Shown here: positions 480-18,778 of the stretch, one piece after another | Position numbering within the stretch: the stretch's first letter is position 1 | Layout of the letters: each line of letters opens with the position of its first letter | Origin: Clostridiales bacterium | GTDB lineage: Bacteria; Bacillota; Clostridia; Lachnospirales; Lachnospiraceae | Length of the DNA: 46,136 nucleotides | NCBI GenBank assembly: GCA_021203005.1 | Contig: JAJQCB010000254.1 | Coordinates: 1 to 46,136 of the forward strand | Direction: 5' to 3' | Translations under genes and position numbers: made by a program | Notes under the pieces: model-generated | What the model was told of the DNA's origin: nothing | Database searches by the model: none | Seen by the model: only the letters and a program-made list of their open reading frames with translations

Positions 480-1592
480 ATGAAGCAGTTTATGGTAAAA
501 CCGGAAATATACCGTTACGACACCGCGCAAGCTTTTGCGGAGGAGTTTGGCATCGGTAAGGATGACCTGGTCATCACGAACGAGTACATTTATCAGCCTT
601 ATTTTGGCGCGCTGAATCTGGAATGCGAGGTGATCTACCAGGAAAAATACGGCGCAGGAGAGCCCTCCGACGATATGGCGGAGGCGATTTATAAGGATAT
701 CAAGGGAAATCCGAAGCGGATTATCGCCATCGGCGGCGGCACGGTCATCGACATCAGTAAGCTCTTCGCGCTGAAGAATGTGTCTCCGATTCTGGATCTC
801 TATGACGGAAAACTGGAGATTGTCAAGGATAAGGAACTGATCCTTGTGCCGACCACCTGCGGTACCGGATCTGAGGTGACCAACATCGCGATTCTGGCGC
901 TGAACAGCCGCGGCACGAAGAAAGGACTGGCGGTGGACGAGATGTACGCGGACAAAGCCGTTCTGATTCCGGAACTTTTAAAGGGGCTCCCGTTCCGCTT
1001 CTTTGCCACCAGTTCTATTGACGCGCTGATTCATGCGATCGAGTCCTCCCTTTCCCCGAAAGGAAACGGTTACACGCGGATGTTCGGTTACAAGGCGATT
1101 GAGATGATTTTAAACGGCTACAAGGAGATCCGGGACAATGGACCGGAGGCGAGAATTCCGCTGCTGGAGGACTTCCTCATCGCGTCGAACTACGCAGGAA
1201 TCGCATTCGGCAATGCCGGCTGCGCCGCAGTGCATGCGCTGAGCTACCCGCTGGGCGCCACCTACCATGTGGCTCACGGCGAGGCCAACTACGCGATGTT
1301 TACCGGCGTGATGAACAATTACATGGAGATAAAGACGGACGGTGAGATCGCAAAGCTGAATGCTTTTATCGCGGATATCCTGGGCTGCGAGGCCGGGCAG
1401 GTGTTTGAGGAGCTGGAGAAGCTGCTGAATGTCCTGATTCCGAAGAAGCCGCTGCATGAGTATGGCGTTACGGAGCAGGACCTGGTTGACTTTACCGAGT
1501 CTGTCATGGTGAACCAGGGGAGACTGATGGCGAATAACTTCGTGGAGCTGGATAAGGACAGAGTGTACAAGATTTATAAGGAGCTTTATTAA
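480..1592 (+). CDS. 4hbD: 4-hydroxybutyrate dehydrogenase, iron-dependent alcohol dehydrogenase family
   Basis: The 370-residue protein should reduce succinate semialdehyde to 4-hydroxybutyrate with NADH in the cytoplasm, the step that feeds GABA or succinate into clostridial butyrate formation. It has the nucleotide motif GGGTVID at residues 85-91, the stretch PTTCGTGSEVTN, and the metal ligands of the family: Asp181, His185, His252 and His266. From memory it closely resembles Clostridium kluyveri AbfH/4HbD along its length, including the QEKYGAGEPSD region and the YKELY-type C-terminus. The start follows an aaaggagag ribosome binding site. It is monocistronic, has its own promoter, and is followed by a terminator-like hairpin about 205 bases downstream. 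Its placement beside amine-catabolism genes suggests it disposes of the C4 semialdehyde. Another short-chain hydroxyacid substrate is possible. Confidence 0.85.
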   Translation: MKQFMVKPEIYRYDTAQAFAEEFGIGKDDLVITNEYIYQPYFGALNLECEVIYQEKYGAGEPSDDMAEAIYKDIKGNPKRIIAIGGGTVIDISKLFALKNVSPILDLYDGKLEIVKDKELILVPTTCGTGSEVTNIAILALNSRGTKKGLAVDEMYADKAVLIPELLKGLPFRFFATSSIDALIHAIESSLSPKGNGYTRMFGYKAIEMILNGYKEIRDNGPEARIPLLEDFLIASNYAGIAFGNAGCAAVHALSYPLGATYHVAHGEANYAMFTGVMNNYMEIKTDGEIAKLNAFIADILGCEAGQVFEELEKLLNVLIPKKPLHEYGVTEQDLVDFTESVMVNQGRLMANNFVELDKDRVYKIYKELY

Positions 1593-1796
1593 TTTCGAAA
1601 TTGGCCTGCTCATCTCTGTGAAAACAAATGAAAACAGATGTCAGTTTTGCGTGGAAAAAACGTTTTTCGTGTTTATTTACCGCAAAAATACATCTTTTTG
1701 GCACTTTTATTTTCCGGAAAATGGGTTTAAACTCATGGCATAAAGATTGAAGCATTTTCAGGGGATGAACAGAACAGGAAGATAAGATTTTATTCA

Positions 1797-1833
1797 GGGC
1801 AGAGAGGTCACATGTTGATTTCTCTGCTCTTTT
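1797..1833 (+). terminator. terminator-like hairpin before the AraC gene
   Basis: A 9-base-pair stem, 1797-1805 with 1821-1829 (one G-T pair), is followed by TTTT. It could end the 4hbD transcript or act as an attenuator in the leader of the AraC gene that starts at 1913. The loop carries GAGAGGTCAC directly before an ATG at 1812, which opens a 14-codon reading frame (MLISLLFYIPEEVL). The hairpin at 2986 has the same arrangement. The rest of the gap, 1593-1796, is AT-rich with nothing I can name. Confidence 0.6.
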
Positions 1834-1912
1834 ATATTCCAGAAGAAGTTTTATAGAATTTCCATTATTATGATGGTGTCGTGGTTTTCTTTCCGGCACG
1901 GAGGGATATGCT

Positions 1913-2932
1913 ATGCAGGAAATCAACTGGATTTCAGGAACTCCAATCGGATACAGTGTTTTTGATGCAGTGTCGCGTTTTACACTGCTCCCGGAAAATG
2001 TTCTGGAGATTATTCTCTGCCTGCGGGGCGAGATCAGTTTTTTCGATGGATATGAGGATACACGGCTGCAGGAGGGCGAGTTTATTTCCGTGGACAGCGA
2101 CGCATATTATCTGCATGGCGGGAAAAACAACCTGACTGTCTCCCTCTATCTGAATCTGGAACCTTTATATAAAAAATATCCATTATACCGGCAATGTGAG
2201 TTTATTCTGGAAGGGTATGCAGGGAGTAAAAAGACATATCCGACGCTGGCGCATATTAATGTACAGGGAATGATTTTAGGAATTCTGTCTTATCTTCTGG
2301 AATGGGAGAGGGACGATTTACAGCAGGGTTCTGTGCGGAACCGCCGGGATGAGAATGCTATAGCAGGGCAGGAAAACGAAGGGAAATTTACAGATTCCGG
2401 GGAGAAGAAAGATACGCTCTGTCATATGGCGGATACGCTTTTCCTCTTTATGGTAAATAAATTTGACGCCCTGTTTTACTGGTCGGATCACAGTGATTTC
2501 AGCGAGAATTACATTGCCCGCTATCATGAGATCAGCTCCTATATCCGGGAGCGGCCCACCGAACATGTTACGCTGTCTGATCTGAGCAGGGAGTTCCACC
2601 TGACGGAATCCTATCTTTCCGAGTTTTTGCGAAAATCCGGTCTGAGTTTTAAGGAAATTTTGTTTTATTATCGCTCCAATATCGCGGAGCGGCTGTTGCT
2701 GACATCGAATAAGACCATGGCGGAGATTGCCGACCTGTGCGGATTTTCCAATGTGAAAATTTTTACCAGATATTTTAAAAAATGGCATAACTGTACGCCG
2801 GGGGAGTTCAGAAAAATGTTTACGCAGGAAATAGATGACGATATCAGCTATAAGAATCTGGCGGAAATTGAGGGGGCACTGCAGCATGTATCCCTGATTA
2901 ACCAGCGGATGCGGCTCCTGAGCCGGTTGTAA
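1913..2932 (+). CDS. AraC-family transcriptional regulator
   Basis: The 339-residue protein has an N-terminal sensing region and a C-terminal pair of helix-turn-helix motifs typical of AraC/XylS proteins. The DNA-binding part covers roughly residues 205-305. The first helix-turn-helix is around VTLSDLSREFHLTESYLSEF and the second around MAEIADLCGFSNVKIFTRYF, followed by the family signature region ending in TPGEFRKM. ATG 1913 follows cggaggga. It lies between 4hbD and the first saccharopine-dehydrogenase-like gene in the same direction, with hairpins on both sides, so it is probably a local activator. The effector is unknown; a polyamine or a breakdown product is an inference from context. 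The N-terminal domain resembles the small beta-barrel sensor found in many AraC proteins but lacks a motif that identifies a ligand. Confidence 0.85.
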   Translation: MQEINWISGTPIGYSVFDAVSRFTLLPENVLEIILCLRGEISFFDGYEDTRLQEGEFISVDSDAYYLHGGKNNLTVSLYLNLEPLYKKYPLYRQCEFILEGYAGSKKTYPTLAHINVQGMILGILSYLLEWERDDLQQGSVRNRRDENAIAGQENEGKFTDSGEKKDTLCHMADTLFLFMVNKFDALFYWSDHSDFSENYIARYHEISSYIRERPTEHVTLSDLSREFHLTESYLSEFLRKSGLSFKEILFYYRSNIAERLLLTSNKTMAEIADLCGFSNVKIFTRYFKKWHNCTPGEFRKMFTQEIDDDISYKNLAEIEGALQHVSLINQRMRLLSRL

Positions 2933-2985
2933 GTTTCGGATTGTATTGATGTAAGAGGCAGGTAAAAAATCAGATAGATTGAATG

Positions 2986-3179: not shown

Positions 3180-4418
3180 ATGAATGAAGTGAAAAAGATT
3201 CTGGTTCTGGGAACCGGAGCACAGGGTACCACAGTAGCAGAGAGAATGGATGAGGAACCCGGGGTGACAGAGATCCGCTGTGCGGATACTGACCACCGGG
3301 CTGTAGATGAACTGGTGAAGATACTGAAAAAAGCGAAAGGCCTCTATGTGGACGCCAACGATGTGGACAGCATCATTGCGGCAGCAGAGGGCGTTGATCT
3401 GATTGTCAACGCGCTGCCAATCCGCTTTGCGCCGAATGTTCTGGAGGCTGCGCTGGCAGTGAAGTGCAACTATCAGGATTTCGCGGCAACCGATGTTCTG
3501 GATCCCTGGTGGCCAAAGTGCATACAGATGCTATATGACAATTACGGCAGCCGTTTTGAGGCGATCGGAAAGCTGGCGATCATCGGCACCGGCTCCGCGC
3601 CGGGCATGATGTGCGTGGCTGCGCGAAATTCCATGAGGTATCTGGATACCTGCGGCGACATCCTGATGATGGTATATGAGGGCGTGGAGGCGAAGCGGTT
3701 TCTCCCGTTCTGGTGGTCGCCGTTTACGGCGCTGTCGGATATGACAGATCCCACCTTTGCCCTTAAGGACGGCGTGATTGTAGAGACAAAGCCTCATTCC
3801 CTGCCGGTTTACCGGAAGTTCAAGGGATGTGCCAACGATGTGAAGCTGGTGGAGCACGCCCACGACGAGCCGGTCTATATGGGAATCAACAAGGACACGC
3901 ATTTTAAAGGAGCAAAAAATATCAACTTCAAGTATGGCGGCGTCGGCGTTGAGTTTGCGACCCCGCTGTATCGGGCCGGGTTGTTGTCCAGAGAGGAGGA
4001 AACCTACCACGGACATACGTTCGTTCCGTTTGATGTGGTTCTGGAACATCTGCCCCCGGCGCCAAAATATCGCGAAGAGATAAAAGAGATTCTCGACGAG
4101 GGGCTGGTGAAGGATGAGGGCGCCTTTGTGGTGGAATCCACGGGGACGAAAGATGGACAGCAGGTCATGGTGGAAACCTATGTGTATTCACCAGGCTGTC
4201 AGGAGTCCTTTGAGCGGGCCGGAATCACCGGAGAGATGTATCTGACCGGCCAGTGCGGAGCGTTGTTTACCAAAATGTTTGTTCGCGGTCATTATGACCA
4301 GGTGGGACTGCTGTCCTCCGATATGCTGACCTTCGATGAGGTCGACGAGTATCTGGCCATGGCAAAGGAGCTGGATATCCGGCTGGAGGTAGAGATAAAA
4401 ACGCATGTAAGTGTATAA
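3180..4418 (+). CDS. saccharopine-dehydrogenase-like oxidoreductase (first of two)
   Basis: A 412-residue cytoplasmic protein beginning with a Rossmann nucleotide-binding motif, VLGTGAQGTTVAERM, at about residues 9-23. After that come an ALPI segment and a GTGSAPGMMCVAARN segment, the layout of the saccharopine dehydrogenase/homospermidine synthase superfamily. These enzymes interconvert a secondary amine with a primary amine plus an aldehyde using NAD(P). The start follows aaaaggag. It shares fold class with the protein at 4571 but little obvious sequence, so the two are probably not recent duplicates. The neighbouring polyamine-type importer and aminoaldehyde enzymes suggest oxidative splitting of an imported secondary amine. 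I cannot assign the substrate; opine-like or carboxyalkyl amino acids are alternatives. Confidence 0.75.
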   Translation: MNEVKKILVLGTGAQGTTVAERMDEEPGVTEIRCADTDHRAVDELVKILKKAKGLYVDANDVDSIIAAAEGVDLIVNALPIRFAPNVLEAALAVKCNYQDFAATDVLDPWWPKCIQMLYDNYGSRFEAIGKLAIIGTGSAPGMMCVAARNSMRYLDTCGDILMMVYEGVEAKRFLPFWWSPFTALSDMTDPTFALKDGVIVETKPHSLPVYRKFKGCANDVKLVEHAHDEPVYMGINKDTHFKGAKNINFKYGGVGVEFATPLYRAGLLSREEETYHGHTFVPFDVVLEHLPPAPKYREEIKEILDEGLVKDEGAFVVESTGTKDGQQVMVETYVYSPGCQESFERAGITGEMYLTGQCGALFTKMFVRGHYDQVGLLSSDMLTFDEVDEYLAMAKELDIRLEVEIKTHVSV

Positions 4419-4540: not shown

Positions 4541-4570
4541 CTATATTGAAATTTGAAAGGAAGGATATCA

Positions 4571-5845
4571 ATGAAACTTTTAATGATCGGAGCAGGCGGT
4601 GTAGGACAGTCAGCGGTGATGCTGATCAAATCAGAGCCAAACGGAGCAAAGTGGCTGGAGAAGATGGTCGTGGCGGATTATGATGCGGCACGGGCGAAGG
4701 AGGTCGTCGCCCTGGCGGACGATAAGCGGTTTATTGCGGAGCAGATTGACGCCGGCAACGGCGAAGCCATCATCGCCATGGTGAAAAAATATGACTGTGA
4801 CTTTATCCTGAATCTTGTAGCGCCGAATTTCAATGAAACTATCTTTGACGCAGCCTACGAGGCGGGCGTCGGCTATATGGACTGCGCGATGACATTGTCA
4901 AAGCGGCATCCGGAGAAGCCCTTTGAGCTGCCCTATATCAAGCTGGGTGATTATCAGTTTGAACGGTACGATAAGTGGAAAGAGAAGGGATTGCTGGCTC
5001 TGGTGGGTTCCGGCGTGGAGCCCGGTGTGGCGGATGTCTTTGCAAAATACGCCGCAACACATCTGTTTGATGAGATTGATGAAGTGAATGTCCGGGATGG
5101 CGATAATTACGAGGTGCCGGGCGTGGATGTGTCTTTCGGATTTTCTGTGTGGACCACCATCGAGGAGTGCTTAAACCCGCCGATTATCTGGGAAAAGAAA
5201 AGGGGCTGGTTTACCACGGAAAATTTCTCGGAGCCGGAGGTCTTCTGCTTCCCCGGCGGAATCGGCGATGTGGAAGTGATCAACGTGGAGCATGAGGAGG
5301 TATTGCTGGTTCCACGTGTGATCGATTGCAACCGTGTCACCTTCAAGTATGGCGTGACGCCGGAATTCAGGACAATGCTGAAAAATCTGGAAAGCCTCGG
5401 CATGGCGGAAGCCAGCAAAAAGATAAAAGTCGGAAACTCGGAAATCGCGCCGCGTGATTTTCTGGTAAAAGTGGCGCCGTCGCCGCTGGAGACCGCGAAG
5501 CTTATGGTAGGAAAGGGCTGTGCCGGCACCTGGGTTACCGGTAAGAAAGAAGGGCTGGACCGTTCGGTTTACCTGTATCAGGTGGCAGACAATCAGGAGT
5601 GTCTGGCAAAATACGGCACCAATTCTGTGGTAGCGCAGACCGCGGTAGGACCGGTGGTGATGCTGGATCTGATTGCCAACGGTATCTGGAAGGGCGCCGG
5701 CGTCTGCGGACCGGAGACCTTTGACCCGGATCCGTTTGTGGAGAAAATGGCAGTGTACGGGTTCCCCGCGGGCATCCAGGAAAAGGATTCGCCGTACGCG
5801 GAGAAACTGGCCGAGGAAGCAATCCTGGAAGTGATACCAGGATGA
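4571..5845 (+). CDS. saccharopine-dehydrogenase-like enzyme resembling carboxy(nor)spermidine dehydrogenase
   Basis: The 424-residue protein starts with MKLLMIGAGGVGQSAVM, a Rossmann GxGGxG at residues 7-12. ATG 4571 is chosen over an in-frame ATG at 4553 because it follows aaaggaagg. Several blocks recall bacterial carboxynorspermidine/carboxyspermidine dehydrogenase as I remember it: GSGVEPGVADVFAKYA with HLFDEID after it, CAGTWVTGKKEGLDRSVYLY, and a C-terminal FDPDPFVEKM. That family joins aspartate semialdehyde to a diamine using NADPH. No carboxynorspermidine decarboxylase gene is present here, and the neighbours are import and degradation genes, so I infer a catabolic role. It would run the amine-aldehyde reaction in reverse on a polyamine or a carboxylated polyamine. 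It lies 63 bases before potA and is probably cotranscribed with it. Confidence 0.7.
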   Translation: MKLLMIGAGGVGQSAVMLIKSEPNGAKWLEKMVVADYDAARAKEVVALADDKRFIAEQIDAGNGEAIIAMVKKYDCDFILNLVAPNFNETIFDAAYEAGVGYMDCAMTLSKRHPEKPFELPYIKLGDYQFERYDKWKEKGLLALVGSGVEPGVADVFAKYAATHLFDEIDEVNVRDGDNYEVPGVDVSFGFSVWTTIEECLNPPIIWEKKRGWFTTENFSEPEVFCFPGGIGDVEVINVEHEEVLLVPRVIDCNRVTFKYGVTPEFRTMLKNLESLGMAEASKKIKVGNSEIAPRDFLVKVAPSPLETAKLMVGKGCAGTWVTGKKEGLDRSVYLYQVADNQECLAKYGTNSVVAQTAVGPVVMLDLIANGIWKGAGVCGPETFDPDPFVEKMAVYGFPAGIQEKDSPYAEKLAEEAILEVIPG

Positions 5846-5908: not shown

Positions 5909-7342
5909 ATGGAAAAAAAGGAAACCATGGTTGAATTGCAGCATGTCACCAAAGCGTTTGGAGAGTTTGTCGCAGTGGAAGATTTCAACCTGGAAGTAAA
6001 AAAAGGAGAGTTTGTCACATTCCTGGGACCGTCCGGGTGCGGCAAGACCACGACACTGCGCATGATCGCGGGATTTGAACTCCCGACAGAGGGGACGATC
6101 CTCCTGGACGGGAAGGATATCAGCATGCTCCCGCCCTACCAGAGACCGATCAATACGGTGTTTCAGCGCTATGCCCTGTTCACCCATCTGGATGTGTTCG
6201 AAAATATTTCTTTCGGTCTGAAACTGAAGAAGCTGCCGAAAGAGGAGATCATTAAAAAGGTGCGGCGGGTACTGGAAATGGTGGATCTGGCGGGATTTGA
6301 GAAGCGTAAGGTCGCAACACTTTCCGGCGGGCAGCAGCAGAGGATTGCGATTGCCCGCGCGCTGGTGAACGAGCCGGAGATCCTTCTGCTGGATGAGCCT
6401 TTGGGCGCGCTGGATCTAAAAATGCGAAAAGAGATGCAGCTGGAATTGAAAGAGATGCATCAGAAGCTGGGGATTACATTTATCTATGTCACCCATGATC
6501 AGGAGGAGGCTCTTACCATGTCGGATAAGATCGTGGTCATGTCCGACGGTGAGATTCAGCAGGTGGGTACGCCGGAGGAGATATACAACGAACCGTCGAA
6601 TGCCTTTGTGGCGGATTTTATCGGCGAGAGCAACCTCTACAGCGGCATCATGAACGGGGACAAAATCGTCCATTTCTGCGGTACGGATTTTGCCTGCCTG
6701 GACGATTACGAACTGGGCACGCCGGTGGACGTGGTGATCCGCCCGGAGGACGTGATGATTACGGAACCGACGAAAGGGCAGCTTAAGGGCGTTGTGGATT
6801 CGGTGATCTTTAAGGGAATCCATTATGAGATTACGGTGTTGTCCGGAAAAAATGAGGTGGTCATCCAGTCTACGAAAAATGTGAAAGCGGGAACCACGGT
6901 CGGCATCGGGGTGGAGCCGGACGGGATTCATGTCATGCCGGTGGATGTCATGCGAAACAGGTATGAGTGCCCGGTGAATGAGCGGTACCAGGTGGATTTC
7001 CTACGTATGCCGGTGGACTGTGATTTCACTGCATTGTATCCGGGATCTGTGATGAAAGACGGCAGGCTGCTTGACGCCCAGGGCGAGACGATCGCGCCGG
7101 AGAAGATTCGAGTCATGGTTTCCGTGGAACCCCAGGATGTCTATATGAGCGACGACCTGGAGATCGGCATTGCGGTAGGCAACATCATCCAGCTGATCTA
7201 TAAGGGAGACCATTATCAGTATATCGTCCGTTCGGACGAGGAGGATGACTTTGTGGTGGACGATCCGGATCTGTGGAATATGGACGACCGGGTCAGCATC
7301 AGCGTGGATCCGAAGCGGGTCCAGGTGGAACTCAAAAAATAG
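5909..7342 (+). CDS. potA: polyamine-type ABC transporter ATP-binding protein
   Basis: This is the 477-residue ATPase of a spermidine/putrescine-type importer. Walker A GPSGCGKTT lies at about residues 40-48, the signature LSGGQQQR at 138-145, Walker B EILLLDEP at 157-164 and the switch histidine in THDQEE at 196. ATG 5909 follows gggaggaac; an upstream in-frame TTG at 5894 is a poorer start. PotA proteins are usually about 350-380 residues. The extra length here is at the C-terminus, where a second TOBE-like segment (about residues 395-477, starting near IRVMVSVEPQDVY) repeats the pattern of the first (around VVIRPEDVM). That may add regulation or substrate sensing. potB follows after 18 bases. 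Confidence 0.9.
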   Translation: MEKKETMVELQHVTKAFGEFVAVEDFNLEVKKGEFVTFLGPSGCGKTTTLRMIAGFELPTEGTILLDGKDISMLPPYQRPINTVFQRYALFTHLDVFENISFGLKLKKLPKEEIIKKVRRVLEMVDLAGFEKRKVATLSGGQQQRIAIARALVNEPEILLLDEPLGALDLKMRKEMQLELKEMHQKLGITFIYVTHDQEEALTMSDKIVVMSDGEIQQVGTPEEIYNEPSNAFVADFIGESNLYSGIMNGDKIVHFCGTDFACLDDYELGTPVDVVIRPEDVMITEPTKGQLKGVVDSVIFKGIHYEITVLSGKNEVVIQSTKNVKAGTTVGIGVEPDGIHVMPVDVMRNRYECPVNERYQVDFLRMPVDCDFTALYPGSVMKDGRLLDAQGETIAPEKIRVMVSVEPQDVYMSDDLEIGIAVGNIIQLIYKGDHYQYIVRSDEEDDFVVDDPDLWNMDDRVSISVDPKRVQVELKK

Positions 7343-7360: not shown

Positions 7361-8161
7361 ATGAAAAAAGCCGGTTTTTCCAGAAAACAGCTGGGGATTC
7401 CCTACCTGATTTTTCTGCTTGCCTTTGTGGTGGCGCCTCTGCTGGTCATTGTGTATTACGCGTTTACCAACGGGAGCGGACAGTTCTCGCTGCAGAATCT
7501 CATTGACTTTTTTACCAACCGCAACACAATCGGGACGCTGGTGTACAGTGCGATTATTTCTGTGCTGACGACGCTGGTCTGCCTGCTGATCGCTTATCCC
7601 ACGGCATACATTCTCGCGCGGGGAAAGTGGAAGAAGAACACGTCGCTGATCATGATTTTTGTGATGCCCATGTGGATCAACTTTACACTGCGCATTACGG
7701 CGCTGAAGGAAGTATTGACGGCAATCGAGGGGAATATGGCATTTTTCCCTATGGTCAACACGATCATCGGTATGACCTATGATTTTCTGCCTTTTATGAT
7801 TCTGCCGATTTATAACCAGCTGGCGAAACTCGACGACGGTGTGATGGAGGCGGCCGCGGATCTGGGAGCCACCCCGCGGCAGTGTTTTTTCAAGGTGGCA
7901 TTGCCGCTGTCCGTGCCCGGAATTATCAGCGGTGTGATGATGGTGTTCCTGCCGGCCATGACCAACTATGTGGTCCTGGATATGCTGTACAACAGCACCT
8001 ATATCATGGGCAGCCTGATCGGCAGCTATTTCAGCGTGGAGAACTGGAACAACGGTTCCATGATCTCCCTGGTGCTTTTGGCAATCATCTTTATCGTGTC
8101 CGGATGCCTGAATAAATACGGGGATGCGGAGGCTTCTGAGAGAGGAGGCGCGGTCTTTTGA
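7361..8161 (+). CDS. potB: polyamine-type ABC transporter permease, PotB family
   Basis: A 266-residue inner-membrane permease with about six hydrophobic helices, beginning near residues 10-35. The conserved cytoplasmic EAA loop reads EAAADLGATPRQCFFKVALP (about residues 165-184), which docks with the ATPase. ATG 7361 follows gaagggagg. The gene ends in TTTTGA, where the last TTGA overlaps the start of potC, so the two permeases are translationally coupled. Family members import spermidine, putrescine or related cations; this subunit alone does not decide which. Confidence 0.9.
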   Translation: MKKAGFSRKQLGIPYLIFLLAFVVAPLLVIVYYAFTNGSGQFSLQNLIDFFTNRNTIGTLVYSAIISVLTTLVCLLIAYPTAYILARGKWKKNTSLIMIFVMPMWINFTLRITALKEVLTAIEGNMAFFPMVNTIIGMTYDFLPFMILPIYNQLAKLDDGVMEAAADLGATPRQCFFKVALPLSVPGIISGVMMVFLPAMTNYVVLDMLYNSTYIMGSLIGSYFSVENWNNGSMISLVLLAIIFIVSGCLNKYGDAEASERGGAVF

Positions 8162-11024: not shown

Positions 11025-12506
11025 ATGGAGACAAAATTGAATTACATCGCCGGTGAGTGGACACCCTCCGCTTCCGGCAAGACAAAAGATGTCATCAACC
11101 CCGCCACAGGGGAAGTGATCTGCGTGATGACAGACAGTGCGCCAGAGGATACGGAGCGGGCGATCGCGGCGGCGAAGAAATCGTTTTATAAGACCAGAGA
11201 GTGGAGAGACGCGGACGTTCAGGAGCGCGCAGACAAAATCCTGGAGATTGCTGCTTTGATGGAGAAGTATAAGGACGAGCTGGCGCGTCTTGACACGATG
11301 GACAATGGAAAACCGCTGCGGGAGTCCGAGGCGGATGTGGATGATGCAATTCATTGTTTCCGCTATTATGCGGGGATGATCCAGGCTCCGTCCGGCGTGA
11401 CAATGGATGTGCCGGGTGGTTTTGGCCCTATGTACACGCACACAATCAAGGAGCCGGTGGGCGTCTGCGGATTGATTACACCGTGGAATTATCCGATTCT
11501 GATGGCGACCTGGAAGCTGGCGCCGGCGATTGCGGCGGGCAACAGTATCATTTTTAAGCCAAGCTCCGACTGTCCGCTCTCTGTGGTGAGATTGTTTGAA
11601 ATTTTTGAGGAGGCGGGTATGCCGGCGGGTTCGGTCAATCTGGTGCTGGGTTCAGGCGCGAATGTGGGGCATATTCTTGCGGCAAGCAAAGACGTGGACA
11701 TGGTGACCTTTACCGGTTCTACGGCGGTCGGACAGAGTATCATGGCAGACGCGGTGGCGAATGTTAAGAAAATCGGCCTGGAGCTGGGAGGGAAATCCCC
11801 CAATATCATTTTTGCGGATTGTGATCTGGAGGGCGCCGTGGAGTGGGCCATGGTGGGAACTTTCTTTAATCAGGGACAGGTGTGCTCCGCCTGTGCGCGG
11901 ATTTATGTGGAGGAGAGCATTCATGATAAATTCGTAGCGCGCCTGAAGGAGAAAGCGGAGGCGATGACTATCGGAAATGGGATGGATAATCCGGACATCG
12001 GACCGGTTGTCTCCGAGGCACAGATGCAAAAAGTATTGCGCTATATTGAGACCGGAAAAAACGAGGGAGCGACCCTTGTGACCGGCGGATATCGTTACAC
12101 AGAAGGAGATTGCGCGAAAGGGTACTTTATCAAGCCCACGATCTTTGATCACTGCACGCAGGATATGACGATCATGAGGGAAGAGATTTTCGGACCGGTC
12201 GCCTGCATCAGCACGTTCAAGACAGAGGAAGAGGCGATCGAACTGGCGAATGATACGAATTACGGTCTGGCGGGGACGGTCTGCTCCTTAAACATTGCCC
12301 GGGCAATCCGTGTCATGAAGGAAATCCGTGCCGGTATTATGTGGATTAACTGCAACCAGCCCACCTATACGGCGGCGCCGTGGGGCGGTTATAAGATGAG
12401 CGGTTTCGGCAGGGAGCTGGGCGTCAACGGTCTGGACGAGTATACGGAGACGAAACAGGTTAATATCGCTCTGGATTCGGGTCCGATCGGCTGGTATGAG
12501 AATTAA
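11025..12506 (+). CDS. aminoaldehyde/betaine-aldehyde-type NAD-dependent aldehyde dehydrogenase
   Basis: A 493-residue cytoplasmic enzyme of the classical aldehyde dehydrogenase family. The catalytic pieces are all present: Asn155 in TPWNYP, general base Glu253 in LELGGKSPN, and nucleophile Cys287 in NQGQVCSAC. This combination belongs to hydrolytic enzymes that release a free acid, not a CoA ester. The family includes 4-aminobutyraldehyde, 3-aminopropionaldehyde and betaine aldehyde dehydrogenases. Downstream of a polyamine-type importer, I infer that it oxidises 4-aminobutanal to GABA and/or 3-aminopropanal to beta-alanine. ATG 11025 follows aaggaagga. Palindromic repeats separate it from potD, so it may have its own expression level. 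Other aldehydes cannot be excluded. Confidence 0.85.
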   Translation: METKLNYIAGEWTPSASGKTKDVINPATGEVICVMTDSAPEDTERAIAAAKKSFYKTREWRDADVQERADKILEIAALMEKYKDELARLDTMDNGKPLRESEADVDDAIHCFRYYAGMIQAPSGVTMDVPGGFGPMYTHTIKEPVGVCGLITPWNYPILMATWKLAPAIAAGNSIIFKPSSDCPLSVVRLFEIFEEAGMPAGSVNLVLGSGANVGHILAASKDVDMVTFTGSTAVGQSIMADAVANVKKIGLELGGKSPNIIFADCDLEGAVEWAMVGTFFNQGQVCSACARIYVEESIHDKFVARLKEKAEAMTIGNGMDNPDIGPVVSEAQMQKVLRYIETGKNEGATLVTGGYRYTEGDCAKGYFIKPTIFDHCTQDMTIMREEIFGPVACISTFKTEEEAIELANDTNYGLAGTVCSLNIARAIRVMKEIRAGIMWINCNQPTYTAAPWGGYKMSGFGRELGVNGLDEYTETKQVNIALDSGPIGWYEN

Positions 12507-12625
12507 AGCGAACTCATGATGTGCCGCAGCACAAAAAAGAATGTGCCGGCGTTTCTTGCGGGTCTGAGAGTAATTGCATAAAATAAATCGTAGTATTATA
12601 TATGGAAAAGAGGGAGGCTTGTATC

Positions 12626-13957
12626 ATGGATGCAGCAAAAATTACAGAGACACAGAAAAACTATGTGCTTCAGTCCTGGAGCAAACAGGCGGGTATCAAT
12701 CCGCTGCCGGTAGAAAAGGCAGAGGGAATCTACTTTTATGATTATGACGGGAACCGTTATGCAGATATGTCTGCCCAGCTGGTCAACCTGAATCTGGGAT
12801 TTGGAAATAAAGCCATTGCGGATGCCATCAAAGAGCAGGCAGACCGCTATTGTTTTGTCGGACCTTCCTACGGTTCGGATGTCAGGGCACAGCTGGGCGA
12901 GAAAATCATTTCCATGATGCCGGAAGGTTTCGGCAAGGTGTTTTTTACGAATGCGGGTGCGGATGCGAATGAGAACGCGGTAAAAATCGCGCGGATGTAT
13001 ACCGGAAAGAATAAAATTTTCAGCCGCTACCGCAGCTATCATGGATCTTCTTTCGGAGCCGGCAATCTGACCGGCGAGCCGAGACGCTATGCTCTGGAAC
13101 CGGGCGTCCCCGGATTCATCAAATTTATGGATCCGTATATTTATCGTGAGGCAGTGGGTTTTACATCCGAGGAAGAAGCTGCCAGTTATTACCTGACTAA
13201 GCTGGAGGAACAGATTCAGTACGAGGGGCCTCAGACAATCGCTGCGATTGTGATGGAGACCATCACGGGTTCCAACGGCGTCATCATTCCGCCGAAAGGT
13301 TACCTGCCGGGTGTGCGGGCACTCTGCGATAAATATGATATCCTTATGGTTTGCGATGAGGTTATGGCGGGCTGGTATCGGACCGGAAAGGCGTTTGCCT
13401 TCATGAATTTCGATGTGGTGCCGGATATCGTCACTTTTGCAAAGGGCGTGACCTGCGGCTATGTGCCGCTGGGCGGTGTCATCGTTTCCTCAAAAATCGC
13501 GGCGTACTTTGACGACAATGTGCTCTCCTGCGGACTGACCTACAGCGGCCACCCCCTGGCCTGTGCGGCGGGTGTCGCCTGTGTCGGACAGTATGATGAG
13601 CTGGGAATCGGGGAAAACGTTGCAAAATCCGGTGCGGTTCTGGCAGAGATTCTTGACAGCTATGTGGATAAATACGCCTGTGTCGGTGAGGTGCGGCACA
13701 TCGGTCTGTTCTCCGCCATCGAACTTGTGAAAGACAAGGAGACAAAAGAACCCATGGTTCCTTACGGCAAAGACCCGGAAGGAGTGATGGGAAAAATCAT
13801 TGGTCTGCTGAAAGAGCGCCGCTTCATGACCTATTCTCATGAAAATATGATTCTGATCTGCCCACCGCTGATCATCACGGAGGAGCAGGTGAGAGAGGAA
13901 ATGGCAAAGATGGATGAGGTGCTGGCAATCGTAGATGATAAGATACTTGGAATTTAA
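12626..13957 (+). CDS. class III PLP-dependent aminotransferase, taurine/beta-alanine:pyruvate type
   Basis: A 443-residue cytoplasmic aminotransferase. ATG 12626 is chosen because gagggagg lies just upstream; an in-frame ATG at 12602 precedes that site. PLP-binding features are Asp244 in VCDEVMAGW and the Schiff-base lysine Lys273 in FAKGVTCGYVPLGG, plus FFTNAGADANENAVK for the cofactor phosphate. The sequence recalls clostridial proteins annotated as taurine-pyruvate or omega-amino acid aminotransferases. Beta-alanine is an attractive donor because the next gene encodes a CoA-acylating semialdehyde dehydrogenase that would take malonate semialdehyde to acetyl-CoA. GABA, taurine or putrescine are alternatives. 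It is followed by a 343-base gap with a large palindrome. Confidence 0.85.
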   Translation: MDAAKITETQKNYVLQSWSKQAGINPLPVEKAEGIYFYDYDGNRYADMSAQLVNLNLGFGNKAIADAIKEQADRYCFVGPSYGSDVRAQLGEKIISMMPEGFGKVFFTNAGADANENAVKIARMYTGKNKIFSRYRSYHGSSFGAGNLTGEPRRYALEPGVPGFIKFMDPYIYREAVGFTSEEEAASYYLTKLEEQIQYEGPQTIAAIVMETITGSNGVIIPPKGYLPGVRALCDKYDILMVCDEVMAGWYRTGKAFAFMNFDVVPDIVTFAKGVTCGYVPLGGVIVSSKIAAYFDDNVLSCGLTYSGHPLACAAGVACVGQYDELGIGENVAKSGAVLAEILDSYVDKYACVGEVRHIGLFSAIELVKDKETKEPMVPYGKDPEGVMGKIIGLLKERRFMTYSHENMILICPPLIITEEQVREEMAKMDEVLAIVDDKILGI

Positions 13958-14095
13958 AATACAAACTTAAAAATAATCGGATTGTATTATATTCCATTTT
14001 GATAACACAATTCAAAATATTTTGCGCAGACAATTTTTCACTGTGCACTGTGAGTTTTATAGAAAAATATGTTGTAGCAGTAACTTATAGCAGAA

Positions 14096-14274
14096 ATAAG
14101 AACATCGCTTCCATAAGCAGACGGTAGGCAGATTTTCGCAGCTTTCCGAGCATAGTGTTTGCTGTCGAAGCATGTTTGAGCACGGAACGTGCGAGTTTGC
14201 GGAGACAGCAAACGATAGGCGGCGTAGGAAAGCCAGAAAATCAACGTGTCTGCTTATGGAAGCGATGTCCTTAT
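14096..14274. repeat. nested imperfect palindrome of about 180 bases
   Basis: The outer arms 14096-14122 and 14248-14274 are reverse complements at 26 of 27 positions. Inside are GATTTTC/GAAAATC-type pairing with CTTTCC/GGAAAG, a perfect 10-base stem 14157-14166 with 14204-14213, and a terminal hairpin GCACG-GAA-CGTGC at 14180-14192. It lies 26 bases before the mmsA start and could fold as one long hairpin RNA or a cruciform. Short open frames on both strands inside it are by-products of the symmetry. The rest of the gap, 13958-14095, is AT-rich with nothing recognised. Confidence 0.8.
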
Positions 14275-14300: not shown

Positions 14301-15821
14301 ATGCAGATTTTAAAAGACTACATCGGCGGCGCCTGGGTGGAGAACACCGGCGGCCGCTATATGGACGTAACCAATCCCTCTACAGGGGAAGTCATCGCGC
14401 AGGTGCCGGTGACGACAGCAGGACACATGGAGAACGCGATTGCCTCGGCGAAAGAGGCATTTAAGACCTGGTCGCGGATTCCGATGACACAGAAAGTACA
14501 GTATCTGTTTACTTTCCGCAATGAGCTGGTGGCGAGAAAAGAGGAGTTTGCGAAGCTCATTGCCACAGACCAGGGCAAGCATTACACGGACGCTCTGGCC
14601 GAGATGGACCGGATCATCCAGTCCACCGAGACCTGCTGCGGATTTCCGCTGATCATGCGCGGCGACAAAATTATGGTGAGCACCCGGGTGGAGGCGGAAA
14701 TCCGCAGAGAACCCATCGGTGTGATCGGTGCGCTGGCGCCCTTTAACTTCCCAGCGCTGGTCTGCGGCTGGTTCGTTCCCTTTGCTCTGGTAACCGGCAA
14801 CACGATGGTTTTCAAGGCATCGGAGCAGAGCCCCATGTTTATGCAGGCTATTGCGGATGTCTTTGACCGGATGGGACTTCCGGCGGGAGTTTTCAACCTT
14901 GTCAACGGCGACGCACCGGTGGTGACGCAGATGCTGGAGAGCCCGGATATCGCGGCTATGGCGTTTGTGGGCTCCTCAAAAGTGGGGCAGATTATTGCTG
15001 AGGGCTGTGCAAAGACAAACAAAAAGTCCATGATCCTTGCCGGTGCGAAAAACACTGCTATCGTGGAGCAGTCGGTGAATATTTCCGGTTTTGTGAAAAA
15101 TTTTAAAAACGCCTGCTTCGGCGCGGCGGGACAACGGTGTATGGCAGCAGCAAATATTGTTGTGGAAGAGGCGGTCTATGACAGTGTAAGGGCAGCTATG
15201 ATTCGAGCGGCGGAGGAGACTGCGGTGGGAGACGCTAATGACTTAAATGTCTATATGGGGCCGGTGATTTCTGAGGCAGCCGTAAAGCGGATCCACGGGT
15301 TTATCGAGCGCGCGGAAGCGGAAGGCGGAAAGGTGATTGTAGACGGCAGGAATATCCGGGAGAAACTGCCGGAGGCAAACAAAAACGGCTTTTTCGTGGG
15401 ACCTACCATTATTGAGGGCGTGACGAAAGATTTTGAAATCGCAAAGGAGGAAGTTTTCGGTCCGGTGGTTGCCCTTATCAAAGTAAAGAGCTATAAAGAA
15501 GGAATTGACCTGATCAATGAGTCCGTATACGGAAACGGCGGCAGCATTTTCACGGAGTCCGGCATCGTAGCGCAGGATTTCCTGATCAACACAAATTCCG
15601 GTATGATCGGCGTCAATATCGGCGTTCCTGCATCTATGCCGTACCTTCCGTTTGGCGGTACCAAGGGTTCGCTGATGGGAGGTCAGTATAAAGCGCAGAT
15701 TTCCGACGCGCTGGAGTTCTTTACCAAACGGAAAGCCTGTACAATTCAGTATTTCGGACCGGAGGATGTAGACTGGACAAAAGACTTTATTTCGGAATTC
15801 AACGTAAATGAGACGAAGTGA
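14301..15821 (+). CDS. mmsA: CoA-acylating (methyl)malonate semialdehyde dehydrogenase
   Basis: A 506-residue enzyme of the MmsA branch of aldehyde dehydrogenases, which converts malonate or methylmalonate semialdehyde with CoA and NAD to acetyl- or propionyl-CoA plus CO2. Asn149 (APFNFP) and catalytic Cys280 (GAAGQRCMAA) are present. The usual ELGGK general base is replaced by LAGAK at about residues 246-250; loss of that glutamate is a hallmark of CoA-acylating members. ATG 14301 follows aacaggagg. With an omega-aminotransferase immediately upstream, the likely use is beta-alanine-derived malonate semialdehyde to acetyl-CoA, the C3 exit of polyamine breakdown. Valine or inositol catabolism is less likely, since no other genes for those routes are nearby. 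Confidence 0.85.
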   Translation: MQILKDYIGGAWVENTGGRYMDVTNPSTGEVIAQVPVTTAGHMENAIASAKEAFKTWSRIPMTQKVQYLFTFRNELVARKEEFAKLIATDQGKHYTDALAEMDRIIQSTETCCGFPLIMRGDKIMVSTRVEAEIRREPIGVIGALAPFNFPALVCGWFVPFALVTGNTMVFKASEQSPMFMQAIADVFDRMGLPAGVFNLVNGDAPVVTQMLESPDIAAMAFVGSSKVGQIIAEGCAKTNKKSMILAGAKNTAIVEQSVNISGFVKNFKNACFGAAGQRCMAAANIVVEEAVYDSVRAAMIRAAEETAVGDANDLNVYMGPVISEAAVKRIHGFIERAEAEGGKVIVDGRNIREKLPEANKNGFFVGPTIIEGVTKDFEIAKEEVFGPVVALIKVKSYKEGIDLINESVYGNGGSIFTESGIVAQDFLINTNSGMIGVNIGVPASMPYLPFGGTKGSLMGGQYKAQISDALEFFTKRKACTIQYFGPEDVDWTKDFISEFNVNETK

Positions 15822-15822
15822 T

Positions 15823-15916
15823 AGCCTGATTTTATAAGGATATCTGTCAGGCTGCAGAATTAATTGGGAGAGCAGGACGAATGGAGATTACACCCCGGCA
15901 GATTTGTCCTGCTTTT
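15823..15916 (+). terminator. tandem terminator hairpins after mmsA
   Basis: A first stem, AGCCTGA 15823-15829 with TCAGGCT 15847-15853, is followed by a second, AGCAGGAC 15871-15878 with GTCCTGCT 15906-15913, ending in a T run. The second overlaps the 3' end of the converging PucR gene (ends 15888). It therefore separates the two converging units. Confidence 0.65.
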
Positions 15917-17132
15917 CACTGAAAATAAGCAGAAAACTTCTGATCTGCAGCGCCAGTTGCAGCTGAAATATCTCATTCCCGTCATCAAAATCCAGATCGA
16001 GCAGTTCCCGGATTTTATTGATCCGGTAGTTGACCGTGTTCCGGTGACAGGACAGTGCGCCGGCGGCCTTTGCCAGATGGCGGTCGTATTTTAAATAGGC
16101 TTCCAGAGTCTCCAGATAATTTCCCCCGTGCGAGGCATCGTAGTCCTCCAGTGTGCCCAACCGTCTGCGGTAATATTCCCGCAGCGTGTCGCAATCCCGC
16201 GCCTCGAGCAGGACGGAAAAACAGCCCAGATCGTCAAAGCGGAGCAAACGGTTATTCCCGGATCTTCTTTCAAGCGCTGGGGATGCTCCTGCCGTGTTTT
16301 CAGCCTGGACGACAGTCAGTGCGGCGGAAGCCTGGCGGTAGATTTTTTTAAATTCCAGTCCGGTGCGTGTCTGGCTCAGGCCGATATGGATATCCGGCAG
16401 TGCAGGTATGGCTTTGCAGGAAGTAAGCAGCTCCGCGGCATGCGTTTCTACAGCTTCTGCCGCTGCATTGTGCCACACGATGATAAACTGGTTCTGATAT
16501 TCAAAGAGGACGAATTTCAGATTCCGCCCGGAAGGACAGAAGGCGGCGGTGCGGCGGAGCAGGCGTTCGCACTGATCGAGTGTCTCTGCCGGGCAGTCCG
16601 CAGAGATGATAGCCATGGCATAGGAATCGGATCCCGTGCAGGAATAGCTTTCCAGGAGCTTTGCTGCCCTCTGCGGCAGCTCATCCTCCCGCAGAATGGA
16701 TAGAAAAGCGTTTTCGATGTTATATTTCTGTTCCCGGTACGCAAAAATCCGGTTGCAGTAGGTCTGCGTCAGATTCGACAGGTGAATTTCCCAGGGAACG
16801 GTCAGCAGCGGGAAGCGGCACCGGTCGCACAGCGCCGTCACTTCGGCGGGAATGTCTTCTTCCATAATGTATTTTCCGGTATTCAGGATCAGTCCGCTGG
16901 TCTCTTTTTCAATCATCGCTTTCACGAAAGTGAGCAGCCAGTTTTCCTCCAGGGAGGAGGCGAAACCGGTGCTGATCACCAGCTCATCTTCTTCCAGAAA
17001 CGCGGTGTTGTTGATATCCTCCGCGATATAGAACCAGTTGACAATCCGGTCCATACCGTTTCCTCCGGCGATCAGTTTTATTTTATATTGCTGTCTGGTG
17101 TCCCAGTATAGGTCTCTCACGAAAACAGGCAT
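15888..17132 (-). CDS. PucR-family transcriptional regulator
   Basis: A 414-residue regulator. The start is set at the ATG read on the minus strand from 17132, preceded by aagggaggg; an upstream in-frame extension to 17204 lacks a site. The N-terminal part (about residues 1-130, beginning MPVFVRDLYWD) resembles the PucR sensing domain. The C-terminus holds the PucR/CdaR helix-turn-helix in LAKAAGALSCHRNTVNYRIN, then KIRELLDLDFDDG. PucR proteins usually activate purine or amino-acid catabolic genes in response to a pathway compound. The gene diverges from the aminotransferase at 17420 with only about 290 bases between starts, so that gene is a likely target along with the island to its left. 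The ligand is unknown. Confidence 0.85.
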   Translation of the reverse strand: MPVFVRDLYWDTRQQYKIKLIAGGNGMDRIVNWFYIAEDINNTAFLEEDELVISTGFASSLEENWLLTFVKAMIEKETSGLILNTGKYIMEEDIPAEVTALCDRCRFPLLTVPWEIHLSNLTQTYCNRIFAYREQKYNIENAFLSILREDELPQRAAKLLESYSCTGSDSYAMAIISADCPAETLDQCERLLRRTAAFCPSGRNLKFVLFEYQNQFIIVWHNAAAEAVETHAAELLTSCKAIPALPDIHIGLSQTRTGLEFKKIYRQASAALTVVQAENTAGASPALERRSGNNRLLRFDDLGCFSVLLEARDCDTLREYYRRRLGTLEDYDASHGGNYLETLEAYLKYDRHLAKAAGALSCHRNTVNYRINKIRELLDLDFDDGNEIFQLQLALQIRSFLLIFSEKQDKSAGV

Positions 17133-17172
17133 CTGCTGCACCCTCCCTTTTCCTTTTGGCTCTGGTATCATC

Positions 17173-17201
17173 AGAATAGCAGAAAAGTTTTGTGCTGGCA
17201 A
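17173..17201 (-). promoter_or_regulatory. promoter for the PucR gene
   Basis: On the minus strand, TTGCCA (complement of 17196-17201) and TATTCT (complement of 17173-17178) are 17 bases apart. They lie about 40 bases upstream of the chosen start codon. Confidence 0.55.
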
Positions 17202-17260
17202 CATAAAAATATTGGTAGAAATTGGTCTGAAATCCTATTTTATTGTGAAATTCATTGTAA

Positions 17261-17266
17261 TATAAT
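17261..17266 (+). promoter_or_regulatory. -10 box for the second aminotransferase gene
   Basis: A perfect TATAAT lies in the PucR-aminotransferase divergent region, with only a weak -35 element, as expected for an activator-dependent promoter. It predicts transcription starting about 17272-17274, just before the hairpin at 17276. Confidence 0.5.
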
Positions 17267-17275
17267 ACAGATATC

Positions 17276-17318
17276 GGCAAGGAAGTCGGAGACGTGATTT
17301 CTTTGCCCTTTTTGTTTT
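17276..17318 (+). terminator. terminator-like hairpin at the extreme 5' end of the aminotransferase leader
   Basis: A 9-pair stem with one G-T pair, 17276-17284 with 17299-17307, is followed by a T-rich tract. The only gene to its left reads away from it, so it cannot be the 3' terminator of a plus-strand gene. It begins within a few bases of the predicted transcription start, suggesting attenuation or a 5' stabilising hairpin. Confidence 0.55.
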
Positions 17319-17419
17319 CGTGTATCGTATCGTTGTAAAATGGAAAAATGCGGCGGCCGACGGAAAAGCGCATAGTGTATCGGCGGCGCAAATCGAATGA
17401 AAAACAGGAGGAGCAGACA

Positions 17420-18778
17420 ATGTTGAGAACTGATTTACCGAAGATCGTCACGGAGACTGTGCCGGGGCCGAAGGCGCAGGAGATGATCGCCAGAAGAAAG
17501 GCGGCGACCCCGTCCGCCATCGGATGCATGTATCCGGTCGTCATCGAGCGCGGCGAAGGCGCTATGATCGAAGATGTGGATGGCAACAAGTTCCTGGACT
17601 GGATCGGCGGCGTCGGCGTTTTGAATATCGGATTTTCCCAGCCGGAGGTTGTGGAAGCGGTGAAAGAGCAGGCGGACAAGTATTTCCACGGCATGTTTAA
17701 CATCGTGACTCATGAGGGGTATGTGGCTCTGGCGGAAAAACTGTCGTAGATTGCACCGGTAAAGGGCGATAAAAAGAAAGTATTTTTTGCCAACAGCGGT
17801 GCGGAAGCGGATGAGAACGCGGTGAAGGTGGCCAAAGCTTTCACAAAAAGAAACAACATTATTGTATTCTCCGGGGCATTCCACGGCCGTGCTCTTCTGA
17901 CCATGTCCATGACATCCAAGAAAGCTTACGCTGTCGGTATGGGACCGTTCCCGGATGGTATTTACCGTGCAACTTTCCCGTACTATTACCGCAATCCGGA
18001 AGGCATGCCTCAGGAAGCAGCCTGCGATTACTATATCAAATCGATTCAGGATGTGTTCGAGCAGTGCGCGCCGGCCAACACGATTGCGGCAATTGTGGTG
18101 GAGCCGCTGCAGGGCGAGGGCGGATTTATCCCGGCTCCGATTGAGTGGATTAAGGCAGCGCGTCAGATCTGTGATGAGAACGGCATCCTGCTGGTAGCCG
18201 ATGAAGTGCAGAGCGGTTTCTGCCGGACAGGCCGGATGTTTGCTTCCGGGTACTGGGCGGAGGCGGGCGTGCAGCCGGATATCATTGCAACGGCAAAATC
18301 CATTGCAGCGGGCGTACCGCTCTCCGCAATCATTGCCCGTGAGGAGATCATGGAAGCGCCTGCACCGGGAACCATCGGTGGTACATACTGCGGCAATGCG
18401 CTTGCCTGCGCGGCATCCTTAAAGACTATCGAGATTATGGAGCGGGATCATCTGGCAGACCGGTCTCTGGAGATCGGAGCCAAGGTTACCGCCCGTTACA
18501 ACGAATGGAAAGAAAAATATAATGTGATCGGCGATGTCCGCGGACTGGGCGGCATGATCGGTCTGGAACTGGTAAAAGATCAGGCGACCAAAGAGCCCGC
18601 GCCGGAGATGACGAAAGCGCTGGTTCTGGAGTGTGCGCAGAACGGCCTGATGATCGAGAGCGCCGGCACTTACAGCAACGTCATCCGTTTCCTGGCTCCT
18701 CTGGTGATGACGGACGAGCAGCTGGAGGCGGGACTTCAGATCATGGAGGCGGCTCTGGTCAGGGTGATGGCTCAGTAA
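17420..18778 (+). pseudogene. class III aminotransferase (GABA/putrescine type) interrupted by an in-frame TAG
   Basis: From ATG 17420 (site aggagg) the frame encodes 109 residues, meets TAG at 17747-17749, and continues open without a shift to 18778. Read through, it would be about 452 residues, the normal size for GABA or putrescine aminotransferases. Conserved parts lie on both sides. Before the stop is DVDGNKFLDWIGGVGVLNIG; after it come FANSGAEADENAV, Asp261 in VADEVQSGF, and the PLP lysine Lys293 in ATAKSIAAGVPLSA. A restart could begin at GTG 17822 but would lack the N-terminal substrate and dimer region. Several intact neighbours (potA at 7342, engB at 27082) end in TAG, so TAG is a normal stop here. 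A recent nonsense mutation or a sequencing error is the simplest reading. The gene would make succinate semialdehyde from GABA for 4HbD. Confidence 0.8.

Follow-up and report, generated by a model that had tools for sequence, protein, structure and literature searches.

A movable gene island with two predicted NAD-dependent saccharopine-dehydrogenase-like enzymes and a probable role in oxygen-independent polyamine utilization

To our knowledge, the enzymes known to cleave spermidine use oxygen or other acceptors. Anaerobic fermentation of putrescine is known from Anaerovorax odorimutans, and the putrescine transaminase pathway to 4-aminobutyrate (GABA), by way of the aminotransferase PatA and aminobutyraldehyde dehydrogenase, starts at putrescine and has neither a spermidine step nor a C3 exit. 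Here we describe a gene island from a gut-type Clostridiales bacterium of the Lachnospiraceae that is probably a movable, oxygen-independent unit for polyamine utilization, most likely of spermidine. The DNA analyzed (the window) comprises 46,136 nucleotides, positions 1 to 46,136 of contig JAJQCB010000254.1 (assembly GCA_021203005.1). It is contig C33 of a metagenome-assembled genome (MAG; G000) of 3.83 Mb in 312 contigs, 95.2% complete and 6.4% contaminated; other contigs of this MAG are given C-numbers, loci L-numbers and genomes G-numbers. At the center of the island stand two saccharopine-dehydrogenase-like enzymes, SDH1 and SDH2.

Carboxyspermidine dehydrogenase (CASDH; PDB 8deb, 8h4z) shares with SDH1 and SDH2 the fold over almost the full length, an H-E-E or H-D-E motif and, presumably, amine-plus-aldehyde chemistry. 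For B. fragilis CASDH, the NADP 2'-phosphate is reported to be lined by Ser34, Thr36, Lys39 and Arg45, with no turnover on NADH; L-lysine 6-dehydrogenase (PDB 3abi) is described in the same report as lacking the His-Glu-Glu of CASDH (PMC10413350). Unlike the lysine enzyme, SDH1 and SDH2 have polyamine genes as neighbors here. Bacterial homospermidine synthase (PDB 4plp, 6y87) resembles them in its use of NAD (predicted for SDH1 and SDH2), in Glu-His-x-Glu plus Trp (by alignment order) and in the probable polyamine class of the substrate. It is reported to have Glu237, His296, Glu298 and Trp229 beside NAD and to open its reaction with an oxidative deamination of putrescine (PMC4725965). SDH1 and SDH2 differ from it in length (412–424 residues against 454–475 in the solved chains), are only 9–17% identical and are often placed with enzymes that consume free aldehyde. 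Homospermidine synthase was absent among the best 50 Foldseek matches listed and appeared in a second structural comparison.

SDH1 (3180–4418, forward strand, as are all window genes unless stated) and SDH2 (4571–5845), which the first-pass annotation had correctly placed near saccharopine dehydrogenase, both scored above the cut-off of Pfam Sacchrp_dh_NADP. For the saccharopine-dehydrogenase C-terminal domain, SDH2 reached 60 bits against a cut-off of 31, and SDH1 fell just under it at 29.1. Motifs were compared in an alignment of 48 CASDH, 30 SDH2, eight SDH2-like and 57 SDH1 sequences, numbered by alignment after B. fragilis CASDH; SDH2 fragments (L161, L162 and others) were excluded. The NADP motif Ser34-Arg35-Thr36 was present in all 48 CASDH and in none of the SDH2 (0/30) or SDH1 (0/57) sequences, and the Ser34 column held Asp in SDH2 (30/30), SDH2-like (8/8) and SDH1 (57/57). 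The Arg187 column was R in CASDH (48/48) and E in SDH2 (30/30). His228 is common to all three families, with His228-Glu229-Glu230 read as H-E-E in every SDH2 (30/30; motif VEHEE) and as H-D-E in 55 of the 57 SDH1, the other two having H-E-E (motif HxH(D/E)E). A tryptophan column, WTTIEE in the window, was W in SDH2 (30/30) and E in CASDH (48/48), while SDH1 has a separate, invariant WW (57/57) a few positions before it in the alignment.

SDH1 and SDH2 therefore keep (E/D)-H-x-E together with a Trp that CASDH does not have, and this Trp was matched to that of homospermidine synthase by sequence order, not by spatial superposition. By these sequence criteria SDH1 and SDH2 are families separate from CASDH, from which they also differ in their catabolic neighbors and in the lack of a partner decarboxylase above cut-off. 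From the residue comparison with CASDH and homospermidine synthase, we expect both to depend on NAD and to have cationic amines as substrates. The carboxynorspermidine synthase model NF043000 (cut-off 800) gave 165 and 47 bits for the two proteins, and the one control genome that matched was also under the cut-off; a cut-off of 800 bits may be too high to name real members. Plasmid records label relatives of SDH2 by domain only.

The genes around SDH2 in the window are consistent with uptake of a polyamine and disposal of an aldehyde. The PotA-type ATPase (5909–7342) scored above the polyamine subfamily model TIGR01187 (373.9 versus 355.6 bits). For the PotB-type permease (7361–8161), the PotC-type permease (8158–8955) and the PotD-type binding protein (8958–10754, start codon uncertain), polyamine models were the best matches (spermidine/putrescine permeases for PotB, the PotC and PotD models for the others), yet all three stayed under the strict equivalog cut-offs. 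The nearest solved relative of PotD is the spermidine/putrescine-binding protein 4eqb (64 bits), and the nearest solved chains are polyamine-binding proteins. The earlier assignment of a PotABCD-type importer thus stands, as do those of a hydrolytic aldehyde dehydrogenase and a CoA-acylating MmsA. The aldehyde dehydrogenase (ALDH; 11025–12506), of the betaine/amino-aldehyde type (TIGR01804 584 bits, cut-off 669 not reached), carries the hydrolytic ELGGK glutamate. CoA-acylating (methyl)malonate semialdehyde dehydrogenases are marked by the lack of a general-base Glu and by an Arg before the catalytic Cys. The MmsA-type enzyme (14301–15821) has LAGAKN in place of the ELGGK glutamate, and its catalytic C is preceded by R, a feature shared with 1t90 (408 bits); the protein was under the TIGR01722 cut-off (414 versus 448.5 bits). 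A class III omega-aminotransferase of the PRK06062 group (12602–13957; NF004718 539 bits, cut-off 472) stands directly 5' of MmsA in three genomes and is proposed to use beta-alanine because MmsA adjoins.

All named genes are long open reading frames at the coordinates given, and their families agree with the profile searches, and the list in the first-pass annotation was accurate except for a GABA aminotransferase gene (GABA-AT) that it had counted as whole. The order of genes from the AraC-family regulator (1913–2932; PF12833), the left end of the unit, to MmsA, the right end, recurred in two other MAGs and is therefore no assembly accident. Matching blocks were 92–97% identical in L040/L179 and 74–86% in L041/L180. 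G546 (L040) and G674 (L179) are probably one genome, the contig numbers being identical and the places consistent, and the same grounds join G547 (L041) to G675 (L180). In G546 and G547 the unit lies at other sites, with different genes downstream of MmsA; a 4-hydroxybutyrate dehydrogenase (4HBD) gene precedes AraC in L040 and none does in L041. At L182 (G675), genes for 4HBD, a PucR-type regulator and GABA-AT adjoin without the island, and 25 bases separate the window-matching blocks. L184 (G667) has both ends of the 4HBD gene (the middle is missing), PucR and GABA-AT in the same arrangement, separated by about 150 bases. In the window, 14.3 kb lie at this place.

Since the unit is found at other sites and 4HBD, PucR and GABA-AT are adjacent in relatives, the movable unit spans about 1.9–15.8 kb and consists of AraC, SDH1, SDH2, the PotABCD-type importer, ALDH, the omega-aminotransferase and MmsA. 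The genes for 4HBD (480–1592), the PucR-type regulator (15888–17204, reverse strand; PF07905, PF13556; next to GABA-AT in L181, L182 and L184) and GABA-AT (17420–18778) are the genus's own GABA locus, separate from the unit; their membership in it was ruled out by L182 and L184, where they flank an island-free site. The earlier proposal that every gene has a place in one scheme fails on these three genes, and the place of SDH1, which mostly lies away from Pot importers in other genomes, is tentative. Within the genus SDH1 was found in 5 of 20 genomes (the window's counted). L042 has a shorter form, SDH1 plus PotABCD.

In other genomes, the neighbors of SDH2 favor polyamine catabolism with a released aldehyde. 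A cluster in another genus of the same family (L126, G468) contains PotD, P-II, PotA, PotB, PotC, SDH2 (about 73–74% identical) and, 3' of SDH2, a 65% identical copy of the ALDH; its four importer proteins best matched spermidine/putrescine models (PotA 388 versus 356 bits for TIGR01187). The P-II nitrogen regulatory protein gene (L126, 11374–11739) separates PotD from PotA. SDH2 was also found in 11 of 43 genomes of a second Bacillota-type family within the phylum. It is clustered with an aldehyde:ferredoxin oxidoreductase (AOR) in seven of the 11 loci (L167, L200, L202, L204–L207) and in five of these (L167, L200, L202, L204, L205) also with a PatA-like aminotransferase, three of the five proteins scoring above the putrescine aminotransferase cut-off of 612 (693, 678 and 682). 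AOR domains were checked in L167, and the other six AORs were assigned by BLAST to that of L167 (76–83%). The remaining loci of this family are SDH2–SDH1 pairs (L201, L203), one with neither partner (L199) and a more distant SDH2 copy (46%) next to a symporter (L208). In L135, SDH2 (51%) adjoins an aminobutyraldehyde dehydrogenase gene (731 versus 615), and the opposite strand carries an aminotransferase.

Counted together, 13 of the 30 SDH2 sequences have a same-strand aldehyde-oxidizing gene in the cluster: the window, L040, L041, L126, L135, the seven AOR loci and L158, the last for a CoA-acylating aldehyde dehydrogenase relative two genes past SDH1. Because SDH2 joins PatA and AOR, PotABCD and ALDH, or aminobutyraldehyde dehydrogenase in these genomes, polyamine catabolism with a free aldehyde is favored; the best independent indication of aldehyde release by SDH2 is that AOR takes the place of ALDH in another family. 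SDH2 adjoins SDH1 in L158, from a genome labeled Spirochaetales, and in L201 and L203, and the two stand side by side in three lineages. In L158 (8794–16171) a permease-like gene (by eye), the CoA-acylating aldehyde dehydrogenase relative mentioned above and genes for methylmalonyl-CoA mutase come after the pair.

Close SDH2 homologs are rare, since at E<=1e-70 only 2 of 398 genomes of the phylum matched. At E<=1e-20, 101 of 250 same-family genomes matched: the window's own, G468, six at 36–41% and the rest at about 27–34%. A decarboxylase relative adjoins in all 22 inspected members of the last group (L104–L125). No telling neighbors were seen in six SDH2-like loci at 35–40% (L127–L132) or in the actinobacterial loci L136 and L137.

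The window's genome already holds much of a C4 branch. The protein encoded at 480–1592, of the iron-containing alcohol dehydrogenase type (PF00465/PF25137), matched the solved Cvir-Hbd2 (30sm), which we take from its name to be a 4-hydroxybutyrate dehydrogenase, at 550 bits across the full length (NF058672 just 96 of 500 bits), in agreement with the earlier naming. The window's GABA-AT is one gene split by an in-frame TAG at 17747–17749. Because four other copies (L181, L182, L184 and L183), held by G674, G675 and contig C38 of the window's MAG among others, are uninterrupted at that place, the TAG is taken as a nonsense codon or an assembly error. A recoded codon was rejected on the same four copies, no search for pyrrolysine genes having been made. 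The copy on C38 (L183, 7190–9838) is 96% identical in GABA-AT and 95% in 4HBD to the window's genes and may be a paralog or sister-strain contamination.

Contig C147 of the same MAG encodes a putrescine aminotransferase PatA (681 versus cut-off 612), a second ALDH of the island's type, a CoA-transferase whose best model, butyryl-CoA:acetate, gave 350 bits (below the cut-off of 675) and a 4-hydroxybutyryl-CoA dehydratase that matches PDB 1u8v at 815 bits. An agmatine deiminase is also encoded there; scanned as a partial protein, it gave 378 and 373 bits versus cut-offs of 483 and 382. A C4 branch to crotonyl-CoA that does without the island is thus plausible, and we infer that the island's contribution is the importer, the enzymes that cleave the amine and a C3 branch of aminotransferase and MmsA. 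The dehydrogenase and dehydratase of 4-aminobutyrate fermentation are present, together with a CoA-transferase of a related family under its cut-off, and here they would be fed by a polyamine module. With the putrescine transaminase pathway the locus has the downstream enzymes in common, PatA being in the window's genome. A strain named Anaerovorax odorimutans (SL.3.17) has SDH1 at two places and SDH2, and no Pot-type importer accompanied these genes in the stretches examined.

In the model we favor, PotABCD would import a polyamine, with spermidine as our best guess. SDH2 would use NAD+ to oxidize a C–N bond as homospermidine synthase does in its opening step but would free the aldehyde, giving an amine and an aminoaldehyde; the preferred cut of spermidine would yield putrescine and 3-aminopropanal. 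The ALDH may convert the latter to beta-alanine, and also 4-aminobutanal to GABA. The omega-aminotransferase would then form malonate semialdehyde from beta-alanine, and MmsA acetyl-CoA from malonate semialdehyde. Putrescine could pass on through the genome's PatA, ALDH, GABA aminotransferase (from the uninterrupted C38 copy), 4HBD, CoA-transferase and 4-hydroxybutyryl-CoA dehydratase. Substrates, the bond cut and the direction of flux are all predictions of this model. The separate C3 and C4 exits proposed in the first-pass annotation gain support from the PatA, CoA-transferase and dehydratase genes, while beta-alanine is suggested by the adjoining MmsA. Its anaerobic splitting of spermidine holds as far as polyamine catabolism with aldehyde-yielding, NAD-type enzymes goes, for which the neighbors of SDH2 argue; spermidine itself is the likelier choice, with a diamine possible.

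SDH1 is probably a second amine oxidoreductase for a related substrate, either another polyamine or the other bond. The scan for SDH1 gave 56 loci in other genomes. Permeases of one cluster stood near it in 19 of the 56, directly upstream in 15, and AraC-type regulators of one cluster in 13. The single permease scanned (L089) best matched a basic amino acid/polyamine antiporter model (99 versus cut-off 409), and the permeases near SDH1 in L043 and L089 share 51–52% identity with a permease that neighbors an SDH2-like gene (L160). An SDH2 match was found in 12 of the 19 SDH1-bearing genomes searched; in ten of the 12 it lay outside the SDH1 locus examined. Clostridium sp. ASF356, which carries SDH1, gave no SDH2 match. 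This sharing of permeases, regulators and genomes speaks for related substrates rather than one fixed pathway. The window's AraC is 22–25% identical over 303–341 residues to regulators beside SDH1 (L047) and SDH2 (L150, L159), and the four compared among themselves show 22–25% identity over 274–341 residues. In a phylum-wide sample, 57 of 299 genomes matched SDH1, the own genome alone strongly and the other 56 weakly, as CASDH-like or in part.

Other readings of the two dehydrogenases were weighed against the cleavage of spermidine. SDH2, SDH1 or both might be NAD-dependent diamine dehydrogenases that release ammonia and an aminoaldehyde from putrescine, 1,3-diaminopropane or cadaverine and leave spermidine uncut. 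This is possible but unlikely: five loci have a PatA-like gene clustered with SDH2 and the window's genome has PatA, so that a second entry for putrescine would be redundant, and the island has its own C3 exit. Spermidine is named over putrescine mainly because the island brings that exit, whereas the genome already has the enzymes from putrescine to 4-hydroxybutyryl-CoA. Alternatively, one or both enzymes could resemble homospermidine synthase in action, keep NAD as a prosthetic group without net oxidation, and remodel imported polyamines. The Trp, E/D-H-x-E and the NAD-type motif would suit such an enzyme, as would the many SDH1 copies behind an APC-type permease and the aminopropyltransferase (272, cut-off 260) adjoining the SDH2 operon in L200. 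With aldehyde-oxidizing enzymes next to SDH2 in 13 of 30 sequences and only 9–17% identity to the solved homospermidine synthases, we regard interconversion as improbable.

An amino acid substrate, with SDH2 or SDH1 as a lysine (or ornithine) dehydrogenase supplying an aminoadipate-type aldehyde to the ALDH, is similarly doubtful. Pot importers in the window and L126 and the PatA and aminobutyraldehyde dehydrogenase contexts count against it, while structural closeness to lysine 6-dehydrogenase would fit, as would the APC-type permeases (amino acid and basic amino acid/polyamine models match them weakly, under the cut-off), an Lrp regulator in L135, and a LysE/ArgO transporter with ArgP in L134. 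The aminotransferase and the iron-containing dehydrogenase might instead belong to taurine or sulfonate metabolism and be here by chance, as the best solved match of the former (6jix) and the best NCBIfam match of 480–1592, a sulfoacetaldehyde reductase model at 134 of 700 bits, would have it. We consider this very unlikely, since the latter protein is far nearer Hbd2 and the aminotransferase immediately precedes MmsA in three genomes. Least credible is a biosynthetic carboxyspermidine pathway with SDH1 and SDH2 as CASDH paralogs. Both the NADP motif and Arg187 are lost in all SDH1 and SDH2, and nspC, the gene for the partner decarboxylase of CASDH, reached only 19 bits (cut-off 409) in the window's genome, where a miss is possible at 95% completeness. 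On these two grounds CASDH-type biosynthesis with its decarboxylase was rejected. In G468 a CASDH with nspC (511 versus 409), accompanied by a spermidine synthase (L133), coexists with SDH2. No further CASDH-like gene besides SDH1 and SDH2 was found in the window's genome.

Several observations weigh against spermidine utilization as set out above. The NAD preference is predicted from sequence, which does not reveal the direction of a reaction, and PatA next to SDH2 is no proof that SDH2 cuts spermidine; two of the five PatA-like proteins, moreover, score under the cut-off of 612 (427 and 368). The aminotransferase is closest to the taurine:2-oxoglutarate aminotransferase 6jix (532 bits; next solved chain 273). 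SDH1 is mostly found outside Pot operons, often behind an APC-type permease, the L126 cluster has no SDH1, and the genome of L042 combines SDH1 and PotABCD with no SDH2 match and no MmsA. The AraC-to-MmsA unit recurs in two MAGs; in G468, importer, SDH2 and ALDH occur without a clustered SDH1. No close MmsA was found in G468 or G616, both bearers of an SDH2 operon, so the C3 exit is not general. Finally, 17 of the 30 SDH2 lack a same-strand aldehyde-oxidizing gene in the cluster. Two of the 17 have only SDH1 beside SDH2 (L201, L203). Four have an APC permease nearby, directly downstream in L151, L153 and L139 and on the other strand in L138, L151 also having an AOR 2 kb off on the other strand. 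Seven have only an AraC-type regulator (L150, L152, L154–L157, L159), and four none of these neighbors (L134, L136, L137, L199). Five of the 17 end at a contig edge within 2.3 kb (L156, L157, L159, L199, L201).

It is about an even call whether SDH2, with SDH1, forms a new class of dehydrogenases that cleave polyamines with NAD and without oxygen, and whether the island lets the genus ferment spermidine, with branches to acetyl-CoA and towards butyrate. The downstream enzyme families are already known, as are the fold and the chemistry; what would be new is their role, for which we know no precedent. The first-pass annotation knew of no described pathway with this combination, and among the open-access matches listed we likewise found no NAD-dependent cleavage of spermidine by this superfamily, a weak absence as most subscription journals are outside that scope. 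SDH2 and SDH1 occur in several anaerobe groups and a spirochete-labeled genome, and SDH2 also in actinobacteria, with ALDH or AOR as partners. If the model is right, it would show how anaerobes could feed on or remove spermidine, a major polyamine with effects on the host, and form acetate and butyrate from it. Two families annotated just as saccharopine dehydrogenase-like would moreover gain likely substrates and be spared the name carboxynorspermidine synthase.

Some further features were noted near SDH2 genes. The polyamine aminopropyltransferase gene in L200 (16650–17558) lies beside a sigma-54 activator adjoining the SDH2 operon, and by BLAST such a gene is likewise placed in L167, L202, L205 and L206. 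An annotated ornithine decarboxylase gene lies about 4.5 kb from SDH2 in L134. An AlaX-like, alanyl-tRNA editing-type gene (by eye) is near SDH2 and the AraC-type regulator in L150 (13193–14419) and in L152 and L154–L157. Near an SDH2-like gene, L128 (1–6285) has what looks by eye like a CRISPR locus of type I-C, repeat array included.

The window gave no match above the gathering score for any of 4227 Rfam families. A palindromic element of about 190 bases (14073–14265), with a predicted RNA fold of about -91 kcal/mol (206 bases, 14067–14272), separates the aminotransferase gene from mmsA. The near relative L040/L179 lacks the element at the corresponding place, and a 75% copy was found at L164 (3618–3778).

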